Shown piece by piece: positions 29,236-38,930 of a stretch of DNA of 44,515 nucleotides. The stretch is from a virus. Numbering within the stretch: the stretch's first letter is position 1; every line of letters starts with the position of its first letter. The translations under genes and the position numbers were made by a program. The DNA lies in the IMG/VR virus record IMGVR_UViG_3300009610_000044, positions 1-44,515 of that record. One strand, written 5' to 3'. Under the pieces are notes generated by a model. The model saw only the letters and a program-made list of their open reading frames with translations. It was not told the DNA's origin and ran no database searches.

Positions 29236-30635
29236 TGGCTACTAAGGACATTACTAGTCTTATTGCTGGTCTACAGCTAGAGAACCCTCGTCTTTACCAG
29301 GCGCTTGAGTTTCTGAACAGCAGGATAATCACCGTTGAAGAGGAGCTGTTTCCACTTGTTCGCCAGGCTGCTGAGCTAGAAGTCCTTGAGGCAGACCTAT
29401 TGCCTCCGACTACGCTAAGTTTTGTGTTTACGCCCACGACCGTCCGTTTCATTTGGACTGAGGTGGCGGGGGCAGCTCAGTATGAAATTCGTAAAGGAGT
29501 AGATTGGGATACTGCTACGTTTCAGCTCCGTTCTAATTCGCTCCAAGCTGATATAGACCCGCTCCTTGTTGGTTCTCATACTTACTTGATCAAAACCATC
29601 ACTGCAGGGGGTGTTTATTCAGTCCTTGCTACCCAATGTATTGTGACTGTTTCCGCGCTGGGGACTATCACGATTACAAAGGCAGTAATTGACAACAACG
29701 TGCTTCTGAGTTGGATAGCCCCGACTAGCACGTTTCGGATTCTTAACTACAAGGTCAAGAAGGACACGGTTCTTATTGGCACTGTAGACTCAACTTTTTT
29801 CACACGGTTCGAGAACGTCGCGGGGACTTATACCTATACTGTAACAGCAATCGATGTAGCTGGTAATGAGAGCCCTGCATCGGACATTATTGTTCAGGTT
29901 CTCACACCACCTGATTATGCTCTACAGGACCAGCAGACGTCGGCGTTGAACGGGACGCGCGTGAATGTTCCTCTCTTGCCCGGTCCTAAGCTCTTGGCGA
30001 ATTGGGCTCCGGAAACGTTTGAGGTTCACTTCACTTCGAGGGGGTGGTTAACTCCTCAGAATCAGGTAGATGCTGGGTTTCCGATTTATATCCAGCCTGC
30101 TAACCTCACAGGAAGCTACGAGGAAGTAATTGACTATGGAGTAGCGCTGAATAATGTCATTGGGACTATAACCTACAATTCGTTTTTGGTTACACCGGCT
30201 GAGACGATGGGGGTTATTATCAAAATGGCTACGTCGCTGGATGGGGTTTCCTATTCAGCCTTTACGAGTGGGGCAAGCCAGTTCCTCTCAACTCTACGCT
30301 ACCTTAAATTCCGGCTTGAGTTTACAGGGTCAAGCACGAAGGCCCTGATGGAGATTTTCAACGTAGTTATCAGTCTTAACGTAAAGCGAGAAAATGATGG
30401 GGGAGAGGTAGAGGCTCTCTTGACTGACGTGGGGGGCACGGATGTTTTCTTCAACAAGCCCTTCAAGGATGTCGAAAGCTTGACGGCGACGGCAAAATCT
30501 ACGACCGAGCCCTTCGTCGTCATTATTAACTTTAATGATATACCAAGCCCGACCGAGTTTCAGGTGTTCGTCTTTGATACGACGGGCAATCGGGTTAGCA
30601 AAACAGTCGAGTGGAAGGCGCGCGGGGTCATCTGA
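29235..30635 (+). CDS. Tail protein with fibronectin type III domains
   Basis: It encodes 466 residues. A helical start (about 1-55) is followed by FnIII-type beta sandwiches (FVFTPTTVRFIWTEVAGAAQ to about 135; ITKAVIDNNVLLSWIAPTST to about 215, with the closing YTVTAIDVAGNESPAS). The C-terminal 240 residues are beta-rich and unassigned. Such proteins sit at the tail tip and carry the receptor-binding spikes. It overlaps both neighbours by one base. Confidence 0.7.
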   Translation: MATKDITSLIAGLQLENPRLYQALEFLNSRIITVEEELFPLVRQAAELEVLEADLLPPTTLSFVFTPTTVRFIWTEVAGAAQYEIRKGVDWDTATFQLRSNSLQADIDPLLVGSHTYLIKTITAGGVYSVLATQCIVTVSALGTITITKAVIDNNVLLSWIAPTSTFRILNYKVKKDTVLIGTVDSTFFTRFENVAGTYTYTVTAIDVAGNESPASDIIVQVLTPPDYALQDQQTSALNGTRVNVPLLPGPKLLANWAPETFEVHFTSRGWLTPQNQVDAGFPIYIQPANLTGSYEEVIDYGVALNNVIGTITYNSFLVTPAETMGVIIKMATSLDGVSYSAFTSGASQFLSTLRYLKFRLEFTGSSTKALMEIFNVVISLNVKRENDGGEVEALLTDVGGTDVFFNKPFKDVESLTATAKSTTEPFVVIINFNDIPSPTEFQVFVFDTTGNRVSKTVEWKARGVI

Positions 30636-32275
30636 TGTGGCAGCGGTGGAATCAGACGCTAAATAAGTTTGAGAAGAGCACCGATGATGGTGTGACATGG
30701 GAACGTCTGGATATTTCTGAGACAGTTGGCTATCGAAACGTCAGAGACTATGGTGCTCTTGGGGATGGTGTCACGAATGATACTGCTGCCATCCAAGACG
30801 CACTTGATGACATGCTTATAAATGGGGGTCGACTCTTATTTCCCCCCGGAGTTTACTGCGTTGGTGTTGGTGGGACTGGGCTAGTTGTAAGTCAAAGTAA
30901 TAACTTCGCCTTTGAGATTATCGGTGCTGGTAAGATCATGCATCTTCAAATCTCGGGTGAGGCTGCTACGACTCTCAAGTGGGTTGGTAGTGCTGGTGGT
31001 AAGATTCTCTCCGTCATCGCGATGAACGGTGGTCGTATCGAGGGAATTACCTTTGACTGCAACACGGTAAACCCAGCGGCAAATGGACTCTACATTGAAT
31101 CTTGCGTAGGAACTCATTTCGAGTGTTTAGGAATAGACAATTCTAGCGAGTATGGTTTCTGGATTCGCTCTGTTGCGGCTGGTGTCTATTCTTGCACTTT
31201 TAACAATCTTCATACTGAGGAAACTTGTGATGGTGGAATGCTTCATGATGCTGATAACGGTTCTCCCCCAGTAGCAGATATTGCTCATTGCACTTTTACG
31301 AACTTAACTCTGAACTATAAGGGGACGACTCGACATGCTCTGAGCCTAAAGTCAACTGATAACTGCTGGTTCTTTGGTCTTACAATACGTGCTGTTGATT
31401 GGCACTGTGCAGAGCTGATGTATCTGCATGATAAAGCTGGCACAGACTTCGGCGCACTTAGTAACTTTTTCTTTGGTGTTGATGGTGGAACTGGGGATGT
31501 AACGAGTGGAGGTGGTGGGACTCAAAGGTCTATCAAGTCAGATGTCGTATCACCTGACAAGAATGTAATCTTTGGTCTTAACCTAACGAATGGTATCCCA
31601 GGACTCATCACAGGAACCCATCCAGAGACTCTTTACGTGATGGGGGATAGTTCAGGATTTATTCAAAGTAGACATTTTAGCTCACCTGAGAAGCTAGCTT
31701 TCTCAAATGCAACTCAACCTCTGCATCTGTATTCTGACTCTTCATCAGGTCAGACCCGTATGCAGATGTGGGATGCTGCTACGGCAATTGGTTTTCGTCT
31801 TGCTACTAGGGTAGGAGCTGGAGTTGATATTGATCTTCTCGATATCAATGGGACTACTGGTGACGCTAAACTCAAGGGCTCTATTACTCTCGATGGGAGC
31901 AAGATAGTCTTTGATAGCATTACCAATGCTGATATGACCGGGGAGATAAACGCTACTGGTTATAATGGTGGCGTGACTCGATTTCGTGATTTGTCCATTA
32001 AAGATGGCAAGGGAGTGGAAATCATAAAGTTTATGAATTCTCTCGTCGCTGATAATGGTGCGTTTCTTTCCAACGGGTTTAGCTTGCATGTCGGATCAGC
32101 GACACGAGTTGGTCGGACATCAGTAAATCCTACAAACGTGATAAACTTTTACCCAGGGACTCTTCCTGCTGGGACAATGGCAGGTGGTCTCCAGGTCTAT
32201 GCGAAAGACTCTGGAGCTGGACTCATTAGGCTTTACTATATGGATAGTGGTGGCACTGAACGTGGGCCACTATAA
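30635..32275 (+). CDS. Tailspike with pectate-lyase-like beta-helix
   Basis: I place the start at ATG 30635 (TGATG overlap), giving 546 residues. The N-terminal block NVRDYGALGDGVTNDTAAIQ plus LLFPPGVY is the hallmark of the Pectate_lyase_3 superfamily: the capping segment of right-handed beta-helix tailspikes. Helix rungs follow to about residue 290. The C-terminal half resembles a fibre domain (AGTMAGGLQVYAKDSGAGLI). It probably degrades a host surface polysaccharide and decides host range. Confidence 0.82.
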   Translation: MWQRWNQTLNKFEKSTDDGVTWERLDISETVGYRNVRDYGALGDGVTNDTAAIQDALDDMLINGGRLLFPPGVYCVGVGGTGLVVSQSNNFAFEIIGAGKIMHLQISGEAATTLKWVGSAGGKILSVIAMNGGRIEGITFDCNTVNPAANGLYIESCVGTHFECLGIDNSSEYGFWIRSVAAGVYSCTFNNLHTEETCDGGMLHDADNGSPPVADIAHCTFTNLTLNYKGTTRHALSLKSTDNCWFFGLTIRAVDWHCAELMYLHDKAGTDFGALSNFFFGVDGGTGDVTSGGGGTQRSIKSDVVSPDKNVIFGLNLTNGIPGLITGTHPETLYVMGDSSGFIQSRHFSSPEKLAFSNATQPLHLYSDSSSGQTRMQMWDAATAIGFRLATRVGAGVDIDLLDINGTTGDAKLKGSITLDGSKIVFDSITNADMTGEINATGYNGGVTRFRDLSIKDGKGVEIIKFMNSLVADNGAFLSNGFSLHVGSATRVGRTSVNPTNVINFYPGTLPAGTMAGGLQVYAKDSGAGLIRLYYMDSGGTERGPL

Positions 32276-32485
32276 ATGACTATGTTTGATACATCTCCAG
32301 AGGAACTCTTTACGTTGATTGGTGAGCGTGAATTCATCAAGTATCGTCTTACTCAGGAAGTAAAGGACCGAGAGAACATCATCCTTCAACTTCAGACACA
32401 GCTCACAACAGCGCGCGCGACCATTAAGATTTACGAGGATAGATATGGCAGACTGGAACAACCCACTAATAACAACACAGTATGA
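32276..32485 (+). CDS. Small coiled-coil protein
   Basis: It encodes 69 residues, starting directly after the spike stop. A single amphipathic helix (REFIKYRLTQEVKDRENIIL, LQTQLTTARATIKIYEDRYG) is followed by a short polar tail. It overlaps the fibre gene by 41 bases. It may be a trimerisation or chaperone factor for spike or fibre assembly. Confidence 0.6.
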   Translation: MTMFDTSPEELFTLIGEREFIKYRLTQEVKDRENIILQLQTQLTTARATIKIYEDRYGRLEQPTNNNTV

Positions 32486-32918
32486 CGTCTTTGTCGCTGA
32501 GGCTAAAGCCCGCGATGTTGATGTTGCTACGATGTTTGTTAATGCACCAACGAACCCGCCTACAAGTGCAATGCGTTCAGTTCGTCTTGCTCTTGGGATG
32601 TTCAAGTTTCAAGAGTGGGATGGTGCTGCGTGGCAACCTCGTTTCCTCGACGTCGCTGGTGGTGGGACTGGTGCTGCAACTACTCCTGATGCTCGTGTGG
32701 CTCTCGGTATTGGGACGATGGGTGTTCAGAACTCGAATGCCATTGCCGTCACAGGTGGCACGGTTTCGGGACTGACCCAGCTCGATGTAACAGGTCCTAT
32801 CACGTTCTCGGCGGATGCATCATGGGACCTTGGAACTTTCGCTAAGCAGGCACGCAAGGGATATTTCAAAGATGCCCTCGTGTTGCCTGTTGGTGTGGAT
32901 AAATACGCCACGTCTTAG
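32445..32918 (+). CDS. Tail fibre protein
   Basis: It encodes 157 residues. The segment VAGGGTGAATTPDARVALGI, then GTMGVQNSNAIAVTGGTVSG and ITFSADASWDLGT, is the repeated Gly/Thr-rich signature of phage fibre stalks, also seen near fibre tips of many Caudoviricetes. The N-terminus (MADWNNPLITTQYDVF) may be the attachment domain. It precedes the His-Asp repeat protein and is probably part of the same fibre. Confidence 0.7.
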   Translation: MADWNNPLITTQYDVFVAEAKARDVDVATMFVNAPTNPPTSAMRSVRLALGMFKFQEWDGAAWQPRFLDVAGGGTGAATTPDARVALGIGTMGVQNSNAIAVTGGTVSGLTQLDVTGPITFSADASWDLGTFAKQARKGYFKDALVLPVGVDKYATS

Positions 32919-32930
32919 TAATAGAGACTA

Positions 32931-33818
32931 ATGGCAAAGATTGCAGGCTCAGCGTGGGTGGAAGGAAATGACTTCCACTATATCGATAACTCCAACAGGG
33001 AATGGTTCTTCGCTGGTAATCTAGTGGGGGCTGCTGGTGGTGGGGCTAAGGCTGCGTCTGCATGGATTGAGGGGAATGACCTTCACTACATCAATGAGGC
33101 TGCGACTCAAGAATACATCGTCTATGGGCCTGACCAGGGGATAAAGACCAACGCAAAGAGTGGCTCGCTCTGGGTTGAAAATACCCTCTTAGCGTGGATA
33201 AAGCAGGGAACAACCAATAAGTATCTAGGACATGATGATGTGGCCCATGTTGATACCCACGGCGACGTTGCTCATATTGATGGCAGTCATACGGATGTTG
33301 CTCACACCGACAACGCCCATACGGACACGCATACTGATACAGCGCATGTGGATACTCATGGTGATACTCCACATAGTGATTCTCATACTGATACTCACGA
33401 CGACGTAGTTCATTCTGATTCCCATACTGATACAGCTCATGTTGATGATCATGCTGATTCACATGGAGATACTGAACATGTAGATATCTTTCATGTTGAT
33501 GAGCATGGGGATTCCACGCCGCATGGTGATAGTCCCTTTACAGATGAGCCACATAGTGATAGTCATGGGGATTCTCATGATGATGTAGCACATTCAGACG
33601 TAGCTCATGGTGACCAAGCGCATACGGATAGTCATGGGGATTCCGTTCATGGCGATGCAGCTCATAGTGATGCCCACACGGATACTGCACATACGGATGC
33701 GCATACGGATGTGGCCCATACGGATATAGCTCACTCAGACGTGGCGCATGCAGATAGTCATACAGATTCTCACGTTGATACTGGTCATACTGATAAACCA
33801 GTGCTTATAGGACCTTGA
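32931..33818 (+). CDS. His-x-Asp repeat fibre-like protein
   Basis: It encodes 295 residues. The first 100 contain three imperfect blocks of about 37 residues (GSAWVEGNDFHYID, ASAWIEGNDLHYIN, GSLWVENTLLAWI), typical of fibre modules. From His101 to residue 288 the protein is almost entirely His-x-Asp, about 40 copies at spacings of mainly four or five residues. Such density of His and Asp predicts metal coordination, perhaps a metal-stitched multimer analogous to the HxH metal sites in the T4 gp37 tip. It lies directly before an HExxH protein and a radical SAM enzyme and may be their substrate. Confidence 0.75.
   Translation: MAKIAGSAWVEGNDFHYIDNSNREWFFAGNLVGAAGGGAKAASAWIEGNDLHYINEAATQEYIVYGPDQGIKTNAKSGSLWVENTLLAWIKQGTTNKYLGHDDVAHVDTHGDVAHIDGSHTDVAHTDNAHTDTHTDTAHVDTHGDTPHSDSHTDTHDDVVHSDSHTDTAHVDDHADSHGDTEHVDIFHVDEHGDSTPHGDSPFTDEPHSDSHGDSHDDVAHSDVAHGDQAHTDSHGDSVHGDAAHSDAHTDTAHTDAHTDVAHTDIAHSDVAHADSHTDSHVDTGHTDKPVLIGP
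33231..33794 (+). repeat. His-x-Asp coding repeat array
   Basis: About 40 codon triplets of the form CAY-NNN-GAY recur with spacings of 12 or 15 bases. Synonymous positions vary freely, so the array is kept at protein level and not as fresh DNA duplication. TCATGGGGATTCTCATG (33,563-33,579) occurs exactly again in the tail of the radical SAM gene at 35,354-35,370. Confidence 0.85.
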
Positions 33819-33819
33819 T

Positions 33820-34221
33820 ATGAATTGGACATCGCTTTTCGGTAAGGCCATTGTCAACTCAAGGTTGGCCCAGTATCCTGATGCCAAAATCTATAACGCT
33901 GCGACGATGCTTGCGCCTGAGGAGAGGCCAAAGGTTCCCGTCCGAATGGTGAATAATGATTGGGCAAAATCTAGACCTACTCCGATGTGGTTCGACTCCG
34001 CAAAGCCCGATCATATCAGCGTTTCTACAGGTTCACCGAGTTATAAGAAGGGGGATATGCCTCGGCTTGCTGCTATGCTAGGTCATGAGGCAATTCATTC
34101 TGGCGGACAGATGGCTGAGGTTCCTGGCTATGAAAGGGAGACCGCAATTCTACAGCGTTTTGGATTGGGAAGTAGTCAAAGGATCAAAGACATCGAAGAG
34201 ATAAAGAAGCGTTTCAAATGA
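33820..34221 (+). CDS. Small HExxH putative metallopeptidase
   Basis: It encodes 133 residues. The segment MLGHEAIHSGG contains HExxH (His89, Glu90, His93), followed by Glu/Tyr in VPGYERE as possible third ligands. The hydrophobic residues before the motif (RLAAMLGHEAIH) match zincin active-site helices. It starts after the repeat gene and overlaps the radical SAM start by four bases. It could process the repeat protein or act on the host envelope. Its small size means peptidase activity is not assured. Confidence 0.55.
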   Translation: MNWTSLFGKAIVNSRLAQYPDAKIYNAATMLAPEERPKVPVRMVNNDWAKSRPTPMWFDSAKPDHISVSTGSPSYKKGDMPRLAAMLGHEAIHSGGQMAEVPGYERETAILQRFGLGSSQRIKDIEEIKKRFK

Positions 34222-35408
34222 GCATAGAGTATCTTCCAGTTGGCATCGCGTGTAATCTTGGTTGCAACTATTGCTACCAAGACCCTATGCGTGATGCGGG
34301 GAACATTACTGTCCCGAGAGACTGGGACAAGGCGCGAGCTCAATTAGAACGAGAGGGATATAACTTCGCGGTCTTCGGTGGCGAGGCGCTCTTAGCCCCC
34401 ATCGAGCATCTTGAGGAGGTCTTCAAGTTTGGGTTTGAACGTTTTGGACGGAACAGTATCCAGACCAACGGTATGCTGATCAGTGATGCACACATTGAGC
34501 TTTTTCAGAAGTATCATGTTGGTGTTGGTATTTCCATTGATGGGGGAGACTACCTTAACGATGCTCGATGGGCTGGTTCTCTAGAGGCAACGCGTAAGGC
34601 TACTAAGTTGGTTCAGAAAAACATTGAGCTACTTTGTAAAGAGGAAATAATTCCAAGCATCATCGTTACTCTGCACAGGGGTAATGCTGAAACTCTCGAC
34701 AAGATTTACGACTTGTGTGAATGGTTCAATCTGTTAGAGCTGCTCGGAATTCGAAATATTAATCTACACATTCTCGAGACGGAGAAGGGTCGAGAAAACT
34801 TAGCCCTAACAGATAGGCAAAACATCCAAGCGTTTCGAGTGCTTTACGAGCACTCTTTGAAATCAAAAATGTCGTTTCAACCATTTCGAGATATTCGTCG
34901 ACTACTCTTGCAGGAAGAGTTGAGCAACGTATCCTGTATCTGGAATGCTTGCGATCCGTTAACGACTGATGCTGTTCGAGGGGTGGGACCTGATGGAACG
35001 CAATCAAATTGTGGAAGAACCAACAAGGATGGAGTCAACTGGGTCAAGTCTGACTCTAATGGGACTGAGAGATATCTGGTTCTGCATCATACTCCTCAGT
35101 CTCATGGTGGGTGTAAGGATTGTCGATTCTTTTCTCTCTGCAAGGGACAGTGTCCTGGAACAGCTATCGACAATGACTGGCGCAATCGGACGGTTCATTG
35201 TGCGGTGTGGTTCTTCCTGTTTGAGATGATTGAGAAGACCATTCTCCTATCTCACAGACTACCTATTTCTCGTGATACTGCTGCGCGAAAGGCTCTTGAG
35301 GCAGGACTCCTTAAGAAATGGGGAATACCTCATAGCAATCATGGTGATGCTCCTCATGGGGATTCTCATGGGGATTCTGATAAGGGCATAGAAGTAGTCT
35401 GGCTATGA
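34218..35408 (+). CDS. Radical SAM/SPASM enzyme with His-x-Asp tail
   Basis: It encodes 396 residues. Cys12-x3-Cys16-x2-Cys19 (CNLGCNYC) binds the SAM-cleaving 4Fe-4S cluster; FGGEALL (about 53-59) is the GGE motif of the SAM site; ISIDGG is a barrel strand. Late cysteines (NACDP, NCGRT, CKDCRFFSLCKGQCPG at about 299-313, and a final HC) form a SPASM-type domain for extra Fe-S clusters, usual in peptide-modifying enzymes such as sulfatase- and RiPP-maturases. After residue 370 the protein carries its own NHGDAPHGDSHGDS tail, matching the repeat protein. Probable role: modification of the neighbouring His-Asp protein (inference). Confidence 0.85.
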   Translation: MSIEYLPVGIACNLGCNYCYQDPMRDAGNITVPRDWDKARAQLEREGYNFAVFGGEALLAPIEHLEEVFKFGFERFGRNSIQTNGMLISDAHIELFQKYHVGVGISIDGGDYLNDARWAGSLEATRKATKLVQKNIELLCKEEIIPSIIVTLHRGNAETLDKIYDLCEWFNLLELLGIRNINLHILETEKGRENLALTDRQNIQAFRVLYEHSLKSKMSFQPFRDIRRLLLQEELSNVSCIWNACDPLTTDAVRGVGPDGTQSNCGRTNKDGVNWVKSDSNGTERYLVLHHTPQSHGGCKDCRFFSLCKGQCPGTAIDNDWRNRTVHCAVWFFLFEMIEKTILLSHRLPISRDTAARKALEAGLLKKWGIPHSNHGDAPHGDSHGDSDKGIEVVWL

Positions 35409-36697
35409 AACTAGACTTTGCTCTCCCAGAGTTTACCCGCATAGCGTGGGTGAGCCCTCGTGCGCGTGAGGTGTGGGAGCCTCGTATCCAGGCTGTCTCT
35501 AATGCTTGGCTTGATATCGAGTTAGAATCTGTGCGCCTAAACATACGTGAGGGGGCACTGGTATTTGGTCTGGAGCGCATCAACAACTTTAACCTTCATC
35601 CCATCGAGGTAGCTCCCAACAGATTTGCTGTAGGTCGTGGCCGTCATGAGCTTGCGATTGCATACGAAGCGCGCGACGATGATAAGGTAGGCAAGCTACT
35701 CGGATTCCCGGCCTGCTGTCGAGAGTTCTTTGATGAAGTATGGGGTGATGGGAACTCTGATACTACCTGGGAGATGGCTGGGAATCCGAAAAGCTCTCAC
35801 GTAGAAGTGTCAGGACCAGTGGAGTGCAATATCTTAGGGCGATGGCTAGGCGTTCGGCTTGTCCCCCATTTGCCCTGCTCATTCAACTGTAACGAGACAG
35901 TAGCGCGTGCTTATGCTTTCAATATCATCTGGCCTGCTCAGGAGCTTGAGTGGGCGCGACAAATACTGAGCTGGCCGACGCAATGGTCCTCACTCCACGG
36001 GGTTGCTATCATCACGATGCCAGTGCTCAAGATAGTAACGAATACTACTGCTGTGACTGAGGAACAAGTTGTCGATAGGGATGGGGACATCTACCCCATA
36101 GAAGGAGCAAAAGGGACTGAGTTTCCGTTCAAGACTATACACACCCTAAGTGTTCGCCGCACGAACGATTATTCCGATAACGGCTTTATATCGGCGAAAA
36201 CTCAAGACGCTGCTCACGCTGTCATTCTTCAAGCTGTCTCGAAAGTAATGGCTTCTAAACCAATAGGCAAAGTTTTAGACCTTGGATGTGGTAATGGTAG
36301 ACTCCTCCAAAAGATACTCAGTCTTGCGCCGTGGTTGGTTCCATGTGGAGTGGAACAAGACAGGTCGCGTTTTGAGAAGGCGTCGGAGAGACTTAAAGCT
36401 TACAGTCCTCATCTGTATTATGGTGATATTAACGATCATTCGGTGGGCAAGGCTCCATATTGGGATGCTCCATATTGTCTCGCTCTTGTCTCGGTTAATC
36501 GCATTCGTGAGACTGAGCAAGCAGACCAGCTCCTAACCAATCTCGCGAATGCCTGTGACTCAATCATCTTCTACTCCTATGATACAGATGAGTGGCCGGG
36601 GCTGGGTGTCCCTGGTTTAACTCGGCTCTTCAACATGGAAGAGCATTTCTCCGGTGTCAATACTTGTGCTTTGTTAGTAACTTGTCGGAGGGATTAG
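35405..36697 (+). CDS. Two-domain protein: DUF483-like region plus class I methyltransferase
   Basis: It encodes 430 residues, overlapping the radical SAM stop by four bases. The N-terminal region contains KLLGFPACCREFFDEVW (about 96-112), the GFP-x-CC-x-x-F-F motif of DUF483-type proteins. The C-terminal region has a SAM-binding motif I (VLDLGCGNGRLL, about 290-301), an acidic strand end (GVEQDR) and a Rossmann layout. It may methylate a protein or peptide, plausibly a partner in this cassette. An exact family and substrate are not visible. Confidence 0.75.
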   Translation: MKLDFALPEFTRIAWVSPRAREVWEPRIQAVSNAWLDIELESVRLNIREGALVFGLERINNFNLHPIEVAPNRFAVGRGRHELAIAYEARDDDKVGKLLGFPACCREFFDEVWGDGNSDTTWEMAGNPKSSHVEVSGPVECNILGRWLGVRLVPHLPCSFNCNETVARAYAFNIIWPAQELEWARQILSWPTQWSSLHGVAIITMPVLKIVTNTTAVTEEQVVDRDGDIYPIEGAKGTEFPFKTIHTLSVRRTNDYSDNGFISAKTQDAAHAVILQAVSKVMASKPIGKVLDLGCGNGRLLQKILSLAPWLVPCGVEQDRSRFEKASERLKAYSPHLYYGDINDHSVGKAPYWDAPYCLALVSVNRIRETEQADQLLTNLANACDSIIFYSYDTDEWPGLGVPGLTRLFNMEEHFSGVNTCALLVTCRRD

Positions 36698-37092
36698 TGG
36701 CTGAAGAGATCGTTGAGGCTAAGTCTGCTGACGTTGGGACTGTGCATCCTGGTCAGGCTGGCGGGACAGTCCCAGCTAAACCTGATGTATTAGTTCTTCC
36801 TGGTGGTAAGGCTGCTGCAATGCCAACGACTACAGAGGAAGAGGACCGCACCACTTCTGGCCAGCGTGATACTAGTAACATGTGGGAGAGCACGCAGCGA
36901 TTGATTGCTCTTTCTGTAGTGGAAGTATCGTTGATGGTTGCAGGCGCTTTGGCAGTCTTTGCAAAGACCGAGAGTGTGCAAACAGCGTCTCTTGTGTTTT
37001 TGTTTGGAGTGGCAAATCTCGTCATTGGATTCTACTTTGGTCGGACGAATCACCAGAGGGTTGGTGGTGTTGGGCCAGTATTAGGACGATAA
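36697..37092 (+). CDS. Two-helix membrane protein (holin-like)
   Basis: I choose GTG 36697 (TAGTG overlap, CGGAGGG upstream), giving 131 residues. The first 60 are polar and Gly/Thr/Glu-rich. Two membrane helices follow (LIALSVVEVSLMVAGALAVF and ASLVFLFGVANLVIGFYFG) with a short basic end (GRTNHQRVGG). Topology and size fit class II holins, but the long N-terminus and the position inside the tail/modification module leave room for another membrane role. Confidence 0.6.
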   Translation: MAEEIVEAKSADVGTVHPGQAGGTVPAKPDVLVLPGGKAAAMPTTTEEEDRTTSGQRDTSNMWESTQRLIALSVVEVSLMVAGALAVFAKTESVQTASLVFLFGVANLVIGFYFGRTNHQRVGGVGPVLGR

Positions 37093-37095
37093 ACA

Positions 37096-38547
37096 ATGCC
37101 AAGGTTTTTTCCGAACGGTGTTCTTTGTGTTGGATTGGGCCGGGATCCCTTTGATTCGACTCGGTCGATTACTCAAGAGTGTAGCACGCCGCTCGCTCTT
37201 TTGCATTCTATAACCCCACAGAATCCCTGCATCGTAGCACTGTCTGATGGAACTGTGATTGGTAACACTGGAACAGTCAAACTCGTTGCCAATGGTAAGC
37301 GCACCTGGGCCTATATTCCATTCCCCGCTGGTGGTTATCGAGATTCTTTTGGACGCACAGATGCCAATGATTCTCGACTCATCGACCGTGGGCCTGGCGA
37401 GATTGGACCTGATGGCGAAATTGTCTTGCGTCCATTTAGCAATGCGTTTGCCGAGGTAATTGATCCGGACGGCACGATTTGGCCCCTAGCAGACTTTGAC
37501 ATTTTCGATATTCAGTTACTAGGACAACGTCAGGCTATCTTTCGTGCAGTGAGAGATCCACAAGCTCTACACTCTCGAGGTGGCGTTGTTGAGCAGCCGA
37601 AAGGTGCATGGGGCTGGCCAAGGATGATTACTTGGCCAGGTGGGACGTTCAAGCTGCTCTACCAATCTTTTGATGGTGGCGCACTTGTGCTTGATGGACA
37701 TATCGTCGCTGATGGTGTAAACTTCTTTCGGCCTGATGCGATCGTAATAGGTAATGCCATCTATATTGGGTGGAGCACGGGGCCACAGGAGTATGGTGTA
37801 ACTCCCCCGCCTCTTGTGATCCCAATAGCAGAACTCTCAAAGTTGCCACTCATCGCGGATAGACTTAACACATCACATAACGATGCACCACATAACGATG
37901 CACCCCACGGTGATATTCCACAGGAGCCTAACGTGAGCCGAAAAGACGAACTGTTTCCAATCCTGCAGGTCCTGAACACGGAATCAAGGTTTGCTCTTAG
38001 ACTGCAAGGCACCTCGGAGGCTACGCAAGCACATAGCATTCGTTTTCTCACCGAAGCTGTCCTCCGTGCACGTCGGCAGGGCTTGACACGCTTTGGACTG
38101 CTGAAGAAGCCAGAGGGCATCAACGCGGACAACGTGACAAGTCGTGAGGACAACGGGGTCATTCTTCACTTCGATGTCATTTCCGGCGCTGATGGTCTCG
38201 CCGCTGATGGCACGTTGACACATATCCCCACACTGGCCTGGGGAGACAATGGACCAATCCAGTCGGGGTGGTCGCAGTTTATTCCGGATGACGTTGCACA
38301 TGATGATGCTCCTCACAATGATGTCCACAATGACGCGCCACACAATGACGTCCCATCGCCAAACACAACTCTGGCGCGTCTAGGAAAGCTCGAAGCTGAG
38401 ATGATCGATGTCAAGACTCGGCTTAGCTTTCTCGAGAAGGGTGGACCGACTCCCCCACCGGCACCGACCACCGAGTTGGAAGTGCTCAGGGAGATACTTG
38501 CTACGGAGAAGGCCATTCTCGCTGCACTCGTAAAAGCACTTGAATGA
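37096..38547 (+). CDS. Virion-like protein with two His-x-Asp clusters
   Basis: It encodes 483 residues. The first 255 are beta-rich (DGTVIGNTGTVKLVANGKR, DGEIVLRPFSNAFAEVIDPD), resembling a propeller or sandwich. His-x-Asp cluster 1 (HNDAPHNDAPHGD, from about residue 261; 37,876-37,920) and cluster 2 (VAHDDAPHNDVHNDAPHNDV, from about 398; 38,287-38,354) flank a globular segment. The end is a coiled coil (LGKLEAEMIDVKTRLSFLEK...ATEKAILAALVKALE) like a trimerisation stalk. The shared motif suggests that it interacts with, or is modified like, the repeat protein. Confidence 0.6.
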   Translation: MPRFFPNGVLCVGLGRDPFDSTRSITQECSTPLALLHSITPQNPCIVALSDGTVIGNTGTVKLVANGKRTWAYIPFPAGGYRDSFGRTDANDSRLIDRGPGEIGPDGEIVLRPFSNAFAEVIDPDGTIWPLADFDIFDIQLLGQRQAIFRAVRDPQALHSRGGVVEQPKGAWGWPRMITWPGGTFKLLYQSFDGGALVLDGHIVADGVNFFRPDAIVIGNAIYIGWSTGPQEYGVTPPPLVIPIAELSKLPLIADRLNTSHNDAPHNDAPHGDIPQEPNVSRKDELFPILQVLNTESRFALRLQGTSEATQAHSIRFLTEAVLRARRQGLTRFGLLKKPEGINADNVTSREDNGVILHFDVISGADGLAADGTLTHIPTLAWGDNGPIQSGWSQFIPDDVAHDDAPHNDVHNDAPHNDVPSPNTTLARLGKLEAEMIDVKTRLSFLEKGGPTPPPAPTTELEVLREILATEKAILAALVKALE

Positions 38548-38930
38548 TACTCCGATCGTTTCGCCAGACGGATATCGACGCCATAGATAGGATTTGGCGT
38601 GCGCACCATAGCAATGACTTTTCCGTGCCCGACCGTGAGAACATGGTCATCGATGCAGTTGTCGAGGATAAAGGAGAAGTCATAGCTTATGGTCAAGTGA
38701 AGCTGTTTGCAGAGTTCATGCTTATCCTCGATTTGAGCGCGTCGCAGAGAGTAAGGATAGAGGCGATTAAGCTCTTGATGCTTGAAGCGTTTCGAGGGGC
38801 AGACCAAGCTGGGCTCAAGCGAGTTTATAGCTTCATCAGAGATCCAGGTTTCGCTACACTCATCGAACGGCATTTCGGATTCGAAATCGTCGACGAACCG
38901 GGAGAACTTCTCCTGAGAAAGAAAGACTAA
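38544..38930 (+). CDS. GNAT-like acetyltransferase
   Basis: It encodes 128 residues. An early RSFRQTDIDAIDRIW start, a VIAYGQVKLFAEFM strand, the helix after a degenerate acetyl-CoA site (ASQRVRIEAIKLLMLEAFRG) and a late RVYSFIRDPGFATLIERHFGF motif follow the GNAT fold. The Q/RxxGxG/A loop is not typical (SASQRVRIEA), so activity is uncertain. It overlaps both neighbours by one to four bases. It closes the enzyme-rich module. Confidence 0.6.
   Translation: MILRSFRQTDIDAIDRIWRAHHSNDFSVPDRENMVIDAVVEDKGEVIAYGQVKLFAEFMLILDLSASQRVRIEAIKLLMLEAFRGADQAGLKRVYSFIRDPGFATLIERHFGFEIVDEPGELLLRKKD

Follow-up and report, generated by a model that had tools for sequence, protein, structure and literature searches.

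A radical SAM/SPASM enzyme paired with aromatic-x-Asp/Asn arrays in phages, a candidate cyclophane-type maturase of a virion fibre

A virus record of 44,515 bases (IMGVR_UViG_3300009610_000044; the whole stretch is here called the window), in which terminase, helicase and tail genes are present, encodes a long array of His-x-Asp (HxD) motifs and, downstream of it, a radical S-adenosylmethionine (SAM) enzyme with a SPASM domain. After comparing this pair with its relatives in viral contigs, cultured phages and bacteria, we consider a phage-encoded maturase of the cyclophane type, acting on a virion fibre, to be the best explanation and, judged from sequence, a fairly probable one. The genes at the centre of the argument are listed below; individual loci and contigs are given by L and G numbers.

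32931..33818, + strand: HxD array protein, 295 amino acids (aa), with 40 HxD motifs
34218..35408, + strand: radical SAM/SPASM enzyme, 396 aa, proposed maturase of the array (Pfam, PHROG, cysteine pattern)
35334..35381, + strand: HxD tail, C-terminal part of the radical SAM enzyme, predicted disordered (alignment and AlphaFold)
35405..36697, + strand: DUF483 (N-terminal half) fused to a class-I methyltransferase (C-terminal half) (family and fold matches)

The array protein opens with a head of three GSxWxEGNxxxYID-type units (residues 1-100) and closes with a conserved HTDKPVLIGP; the region between them (about 101-288) holds 40 HxD motifs and one FxD. The HxD motifs extend from residue 101 to 286 and follow one another at 4 residues (16 times) or 5 residues (21 times), and the single large gap, of 10 residues, is occupied in register by Phe-Thr-Asp. 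Composition shuffles (n = 5000) gave a mean of 7.0 HxD and never more than 16. The estimate of about 40 His-x-Asp repeats in a preliminary description of this DNA was correct. Because 25 of the 40 coding 9-mers are distinct, the array is no simple DNA tandem repeat, and such an artefact was ruled out for the window. Elsewhere many matches to the pattern are tandem-repeat artefacts, which lack the enzyme and were used as controls. An HxDxPxxxGP-like C-terminus (33786-33815 in the window) is common among the array proteins of many loci, including L299 of the Phe-x-Asn type, and may be an assembly or recognition signal.

The preliminary description had proposed that the repeat protein is the dedicated substrate of the neighbouring radical SAM enzyme, a proposal that passed the refutation test set for it beforehand, as the two genes co-occur far more often than expected by chance. 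A search with an HxD DNA pattern returned 120 matches, in which the array class was defined as heterogeneous with at least 8 motifs. The radical SAM gene was on the record for 34 of 38 heterogeneous arrays vs 2 of 44 other tested matches; the latter were mostly tandem-repeat artefacts, and both enzyme-positive ones were the enzyme's own tail. The corresponding Fisher p is 3e-16, but with non-independent relatives and some near-duplicate contigs there are fewer independent events than this value implies. A second pattern with different spacing listed 80 stretches, of which 58 had the radical SAM gene on record and 11 were real arrays without it, while none of the 11 non-arrays had the enzyme. 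Searching from the enzyme instead, a first survey of viral contigs gave 19 loci, 17 of them not truncated at the enzyme start; an array protein lay upstream in 16 of these 17, directly adjacent in 15, with L016 as the exception. A second enzyme-first scan, partly overlapping the first, covered 75 loci with sufficient DNA, and in 69 of them an array lay upstream. An overlap of about 20 bases between the array and radical SAM genes is usual. No array was seen at the generic radical SAM/SPASM loci (L169-L226) that came up as more distant matches. Many of the few unpaired arrays end at a contig border; among those retrieved, the arrays of G050, G053, G059, G060 and G007 are cut off at the 3' end, the position where the enzyme gene would come. 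The genome-context survey called for earlier thus shows the pairing to be general in viral contigs; it is no accident of one contig, and a pairing of enzyme and substrate is strongly supported by these co-occurrences.

What the arrays conserve is broader than His. Within the arrays of 55 loci, Asp stands two positions after 2033 of 2244 His residues (91%), 125 of 369 Tyr (34%), 41 of 164 Phe (25%) and 18 of 83 Trp (22%), but after only 218 of 9507 non-aromatic residues (2%). As these arrays had been picked by HxD density, the count was redone on 114 open reading frames (ORFs) for which the sole criterion was a position directly upstream of the enzyme. In this set Asp or Asn follows at +2 after 90% of His, 26% of Tyr, 27% of Phe and 24% of Trp, vs 5-11% for non-aromatic residues, and the residue two after His is Asp in 82% and Asn in 9% of cases. 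In the middle position small residues (Ser, Gly, Thr) predominate. We also counted motifs between two HxD neighbours in which His was lost and Asp/Asn kept in register: the replacement was Phe 25 times, Tyr 22 times and Trp twice, with 18 for all non-aromatic residues together. The one-step neighbours of the His codons include Gln, Leu, Arg, Pro, Asn and Asp but neither Phe nor Trp. Neutral decay of His, considered as a source of the Tyr, was ruled out, because Leu, Arg, Gln and Asn are unenriched (Pro slightly enriched) and Phe and Trp are enriched. Whole arrays depart from His or from Asp as well: L271 has a PFDNTPFDN array (Phe-x-Asn) with the same head type and a radical SAM gene downstream, the array of L299 mixes Phe-x-Asn, -Ser and -Gln, and those of L240-L242 are His-x-Asn. 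A scan with a Phe-x-Asn pattern yielded one real array, already known, the rest being low-complexity matches. The +2 statistics, the aromatic replacements and the Phe-x-Asn and His-x-Asn arrays therefore show that what is constrained is an aromatic residue at position i followed by Asp or Asn at i+2, and by this reasoning the true motif is aromatic-x-Asp/Asn and not HxD proper.

The enzyme matches Pfam PF04055 (1.2e-13) and PHROG 1802 (7e-31), and together with an intact cysteine pattern these matches bear out its earlier identification as a radical SAM/SPASM protein. It has the CxxxCxxC motif and a complete seven-cysteine SPASM region (C245-x14-G-x4-C265 ... C299-x2-C-x5-C308-x3-C312 ... C328), the combination that characterizes radical SAM/SPASM peptide maturases, and all of these cysteines are invariant in 32 relatives (alignment A1). 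The AlphaFold model (predicted local distance difference test score, pLDDT, 87) has as its nearest solved structures an anaerobic sulfatase maturase (anSME) with bound peptide and ChlB with its precursor peptide. The best NCBIfam neighbours include DynA, AmcB, YhhB and GrrM/OscB, the closest model being DynA, a maturase that makes two crosslinks. None of the named cyclophane maturase models (XyeB, GrrM/OscB, FxsB, YhhB, AmcB) was matched above its cut-off, the best being AmcB with 78 bits vs 425; since the scores fall far below the cut-offs of all named families, homology cannot give the chemistry.

Furthermore, the C-terminus of the enzyme is itself an HxD tail (SNHGDAPHGDSHGDSD), a feature absent from the preliminary description. 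The tail is found in 31 of the 32 members of alignment A1 and in 64 of 80 members of a second set collected from the radical SAM enzyme first. The pattern PHGDxHGDHTD occurs on nearly every phage radical SAM protein of this family, and most close bacterial relatives are without it. Such a tail could serve for docking or be a substrate in cis. Residues 373-396 are predicted to be disordered (pLDDT below 50), so the AlphaFold model gave no support to the idea that the enzyme holds this tail in the active site.

The rule read from the arrays is one that is known from peptide chemistry. Triceptide maturases form a bond from the ring of one residue (i) to the beta-carbon of the residue two further on (i+2), and the documented cyclophane pairs are Phe-Asn, Trp-Asn/Asp, Tyr-Asp, His-Ala and His-Arg, with His joined via C2 (PMC11002830). 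The array rule equals the triceptide rule, and a three-residue cyclophane at each step is therefore the most likely product. As with the triceptide enzymes (XncB, OscB/GrrM, MscB/FxsB, YxdB, HaaB, YhhB), a radical SAM/SPASM protein adjoins an aromatic-x-Asp/Asn protein, and the adjacent substrate has the aromatic-x2-x3 motifs, with x3 often Asn or Asp, that mark a triceptide system. Unlike the small triceptide substrates, the phage substrate is long, of a structural type, carries dozens of motifs and has no leader, and the phage enzyme lies outside the curated families. In the mechanism that we propose, the enzyme would abstract a hydrogen from the beta-carbon of Asp/Asn, and this carbon would then bond to the ring of the aromatic side chain at position -2, giving a three-residue cyclophane. 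Each cyclophane would cost about 2 Da, with up to 41 per array protein of the window. DUF483 would probably help the enzyme or recognise the substrate. The fused methyltransferase would make additional changes to the product, as would the alpha-ketoglutarate HExxH peptide hydroxylase that some relatives encode. On the phage tail this would give a polycyclic rod, stiff and stable, serving attachment or stability outside the cell.

Cultured phages carry the same system. In 50,697 GenBank phage records, the only ones with enzyme or array were those of the Thermus phages phiLo, phiMa and Cumys, each of which carries the two together; searches with the array proteins likewise gave no match beyond these three. 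Their enzymes are 46-49% identical to that of the window, and each phage has a DUF483 protein. The order array, radical SAM, DUF483 is the same in Cumys and phiMa as in the window, with a homologous enzyme, a DUF483 protein and an array protein in one operon, although the DUF483 proteins of the two phages are shorter than the DUF483-methyltransferase fusion of the window. The proteins directly upstream of the enzyme contain 53 (phiMa) and 54 (Cumys) motifs, and the head of the window array is matched in both at 35%. In phiLo (L140) three array proteins with 47, 72 and 101 HxD motifs lie on the strand opposite the radical SAM gene; numerous Tyr-x-Asp motifs are interspersed among their HxD. Kolesnik and colleagues described a module of three genes in Cumys and phiMa, one for a radical SAM protein, one for a DUF483 protein and one without an assigned function, and read it as a possible DNA modification system; the radical SAM-DUF483 module of Thermus phages is thus already on record, the repeats being unmentioned in the passages concerned (PMC11437467). 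The third gene is an HxD array (Cumys_13, phiMa_29).

Placement of the array protein in the virion is suggested by the company its gene keeps. In the window and in relatives it comes after tail-spike and short fibre genes, which in the window are as follows.

30611..32275, + strand: tail-spike-like protein with a pectate-lyase fold, upstream context (Pfam PF12708 4e-12; PHROG tail fibre/spike matches)
32445..32918, + strand: short fibre protein, also found ahead of the array gene in relatives (weak PHROG tail-fibre matches)

The same short fibre protein, ending in PVGxxK(Y/F), has this position in L001, L122, L044, L011 and L004. In Cumys the array gene has baseplate and collar-fibre genes for neighbours, and the array proteins of L022 and L247 carry a lectin-like Laminin_G_3 domain ahead of the array. 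Because of this tail-gene neighbourhood and the lectin fusion in relatives, a virion fibre is our best guess for the array protein. The earlier label of tail fibre draws its support from gene order and the domains of relatives; the window protein itself had no direct family match in Pfam or PHROGs.

It is very likely, from the distribution and motif data, that the enzyme modifies the array, and a cyclophane is the likely product; presence of the array in the virion and activity in attachment are plausible. The genes, the array, the SPASM enzyme, the co-occurrence and the aromatic-x-Asp/Asn rule can be read directly from the sequences, and what we infer is the chemistry, the virion location and the host function. 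Several observations weigh against a cyclophane-type maturase acting on a fibre. The enzyme is far under the curated cut-off of every named cyclophane maturase and about equally close to sulfatase maturase, a bond from His to the beta-carbon of Asp is not among the documented His products (His-Ala, His-Arg), and the array proteins are long and not leader-core peptides. The pairing also has exceptions: at L016 no array could be recognised beside the enzyme, and some arrays have no enzyme on their record, the best counterexample being G056, an internal array on a 46 kb record. In the open-access literature, most subscription journals being outside its scope, we found neither a phage cyclophane fibre nor ring chemistry in virus structural proteins.

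The enzyme might modify the array by another chemistry, such as modification or epimerisation at the beta-carbon of Asp, a link from a His nitrogen to carbon, or links between motifs. We regard this as unlikely while granting that homology does not fix the chemistry, that DynA, the closest NCBIfam model, is a two-crosslink maturase, and that the middle residue is mostly small; the strict i/i+2 spacing and the exchange of His for Phe, Tyr or Trp and of Asp for Asn fit ring-to-beta-carbon cyclophanes instead, and Phe has no side-chain nitrogen for a nitrogen link. The aromatic-x-Asp/Asn rule, being the substrate motif of three-residue cyclophanes, also speaks against the two explanations that leave the array unmodified by this enzyme or give the enzyme a different target. 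Metals can be bound by clusters of His and Asp, and some phage fibres hold metal via His, so that the array might be an unmodified metal-binding or polyelectrolyte fibre whose neighbouring enzyme has some other task. In such a fibre the replacement of His in register by Phe, Tyr and Trp, the Phe-x-Asn array with the same head and enzyme, and the near-strict co-occurrence of array and enzyme would be hard to account for, and we hold it to be very improbable. Least probable of all, in our view, is that the radical SAM-DUF483 module modifies phage DNA, as proposed for Cumys and phiMa. In its favour, module homologues are reported to adjoin deazapurine DNA-modification genes in some cyanobacteria (PMC11437467), but the unexplained third gene of the module is the HxD array Cumys_13, the substrate motif stands on the enzyme's own tail, peptide hydroxylases recur in the loci, and the nearest solved folds are those of peptide-modifying enzymes.

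The preliminary description likened the pair to the Hxs systems, which do share a His-x-polar repeat protein with a dedicated radical SAM enzyme. However, the window has a single radical SAM gene and no HxsB/HxsC pair, the third residue of the phage motif is Asp/Asn and not Ser, and His is interchangeable with other aromatics. The comparison is the weaker one: HxsB and HxsC are absent among the best 25 NCBIfam matches of the enzyme, which is not near either of them (a relative scored only 23.8 bits against HxsB, with a cut-off of 370), and the substrate repeats are not of the His-Xaa-Ser kind. The suggested profile search against Hxs, sulfatase-maturase and ribosomally synthesised and post-translationally modified peptide (RiPP) families did lead to the maturase neighbourhood, far below family cut-offs and with neither HxsB nor HxsC among those best 25 matches. 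Triceptide-like chemistry should take the place of the Hxs analogy. Anaerobic sulfatase maturase and the dynobactin and AmcB maturases are the closest relatives in sequence and fold; the enzyme is far under their family cut-offs, and their substrates differ. TvgA/TvgB, a bacterial RiPP cluster with a repeat peptide bearing poly-cyclopropylglycine (PMC9062424), resembles the phage system in that a radical SAM enzyme works repeatedly along a repeat substrate, but differs in its Val substrate, its cyclopropane chemistry and its bacterial setting.

The remaining genes of the region are listed here. The gene set and coordinates of the preliminary description stand, and the genes after the array protein (HExxH, radical SAM/SPASM, DUF483-methyltransferase) abut or overlap.

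33820..34221, + strand: small HExxH protein, 133 aa, occasional locus member (no hidden Markov model match)
36700..37092, + strand: small protein with one hydrophobic stretch, holin being an unverified candidate (no convincing family match)
37096..38547, + strand: virion-like protein with two short HxD clusters (HxD count vs shuffles)
38544..38930, + strand: conserved 128-aa protein, GNAT label not confirmed (no Pfam match)

DUF483 is the most constant partner, present at almost every radical SAM locus with sufficient downstream DNA. Family and fold searches agree on a class-I methyltransferase behind it, as the earlier methyltransferase-like label had anticipated; for DUF483, the fold search of the PDB matched methyltransferases only. 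The small HExxH protein is present as described but is no lasting member of the system: relatives occur at just 7 of 213 radical SAM loci (between array and enzyme in L125, L127 and L132), and it belongs to no family in Pfam, PHROGs or NCBIfam. Unrelated to it is the alpha-ketoglutarate HExxH peptide (beta-)hydroxylase family TIGR04267, which scores above cut-off in L013:11766-12707, L014:11240-12199 and L064:7627-8475. Related ORFs are found at 21 radical SAM loci, including most bacterial ones, and lie beside radical SAM-DUF483 in the bacterial loci L147, L149, L150, L152, L153, L155, L156, L158 and L160; the recurrence of these hydroxylases would be supporting evidence for a peptide-modifying locus. 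Relatives of the 128-aa protein occur at 48 of 213 radical SAM loci. Neither its GNAT label nor the holin label at 36700 found support in Pfam, PHROGs or NCBIfam. The protein at 37096-38547 has 8 HxD motifs vs 1.0 expected (maximum 5 in 2000 shuffles), clustered at residues 261-273 and 402-418, which had been overlooked before. Its L001 relative (25% identical) has an HND cluster and its L122 relative has none; the clusters in the window protein and the L001 relative suggest that the motif may be used as a portable tag.

Related enzymes are also encoded in bacterial genomes (Nitrospinaceae, Acidobacteriota, Bryobacterales, Nannocystis, Chengkuizengella and others), in several cases with HxD-bearing proteins nearby, and the system may therefore not be limited to phages. 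Some of these loci may be prophages, and others are possibly a cellular version of the system. Bacterial HxD proteins stand beside the same radical SAM family in L147-L152, L158 and L159, and a 264-aa protein in a Nitrospinaceae metagenome-assembled genome (MAG) has 30 HxD. In archaeal or bacterial MAG contigs (L163, L164, L168), divergent arrays of Trp-x-Asn/Asp and His-Glu-Asn repeats lie beside radical SAM enzymes that are likewise divergent.

Ring-forming radical SAM chemistry has so far been described for small bacterial peptides; here its motif logic appears in long phage proteins of a structural type, with as many as about 100 repeats. At least dozens of phage contigs have such proteins, and so do three cultured Thermus phages. 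We see an even balance for and against the wider proposal that tailed phages of a widespread class make a structure of the virion out of a genetically encoded, covalently hardened polycyclophane, with a few further virion proteins and the enzyme sharing the tag. The proposed chemistry makes a sharp prediction, namely that every motif in the virion should be lighter by about 2 Da, and virions of this kind can be cultured. If it is true, the enzymes would be tools to staple long repeat proteins, the unexplained radical SAM module of Thermus phages would gain a concrete, testable role, and phage tails would contain a hardened, non-canonical polymer of the phage's own making.

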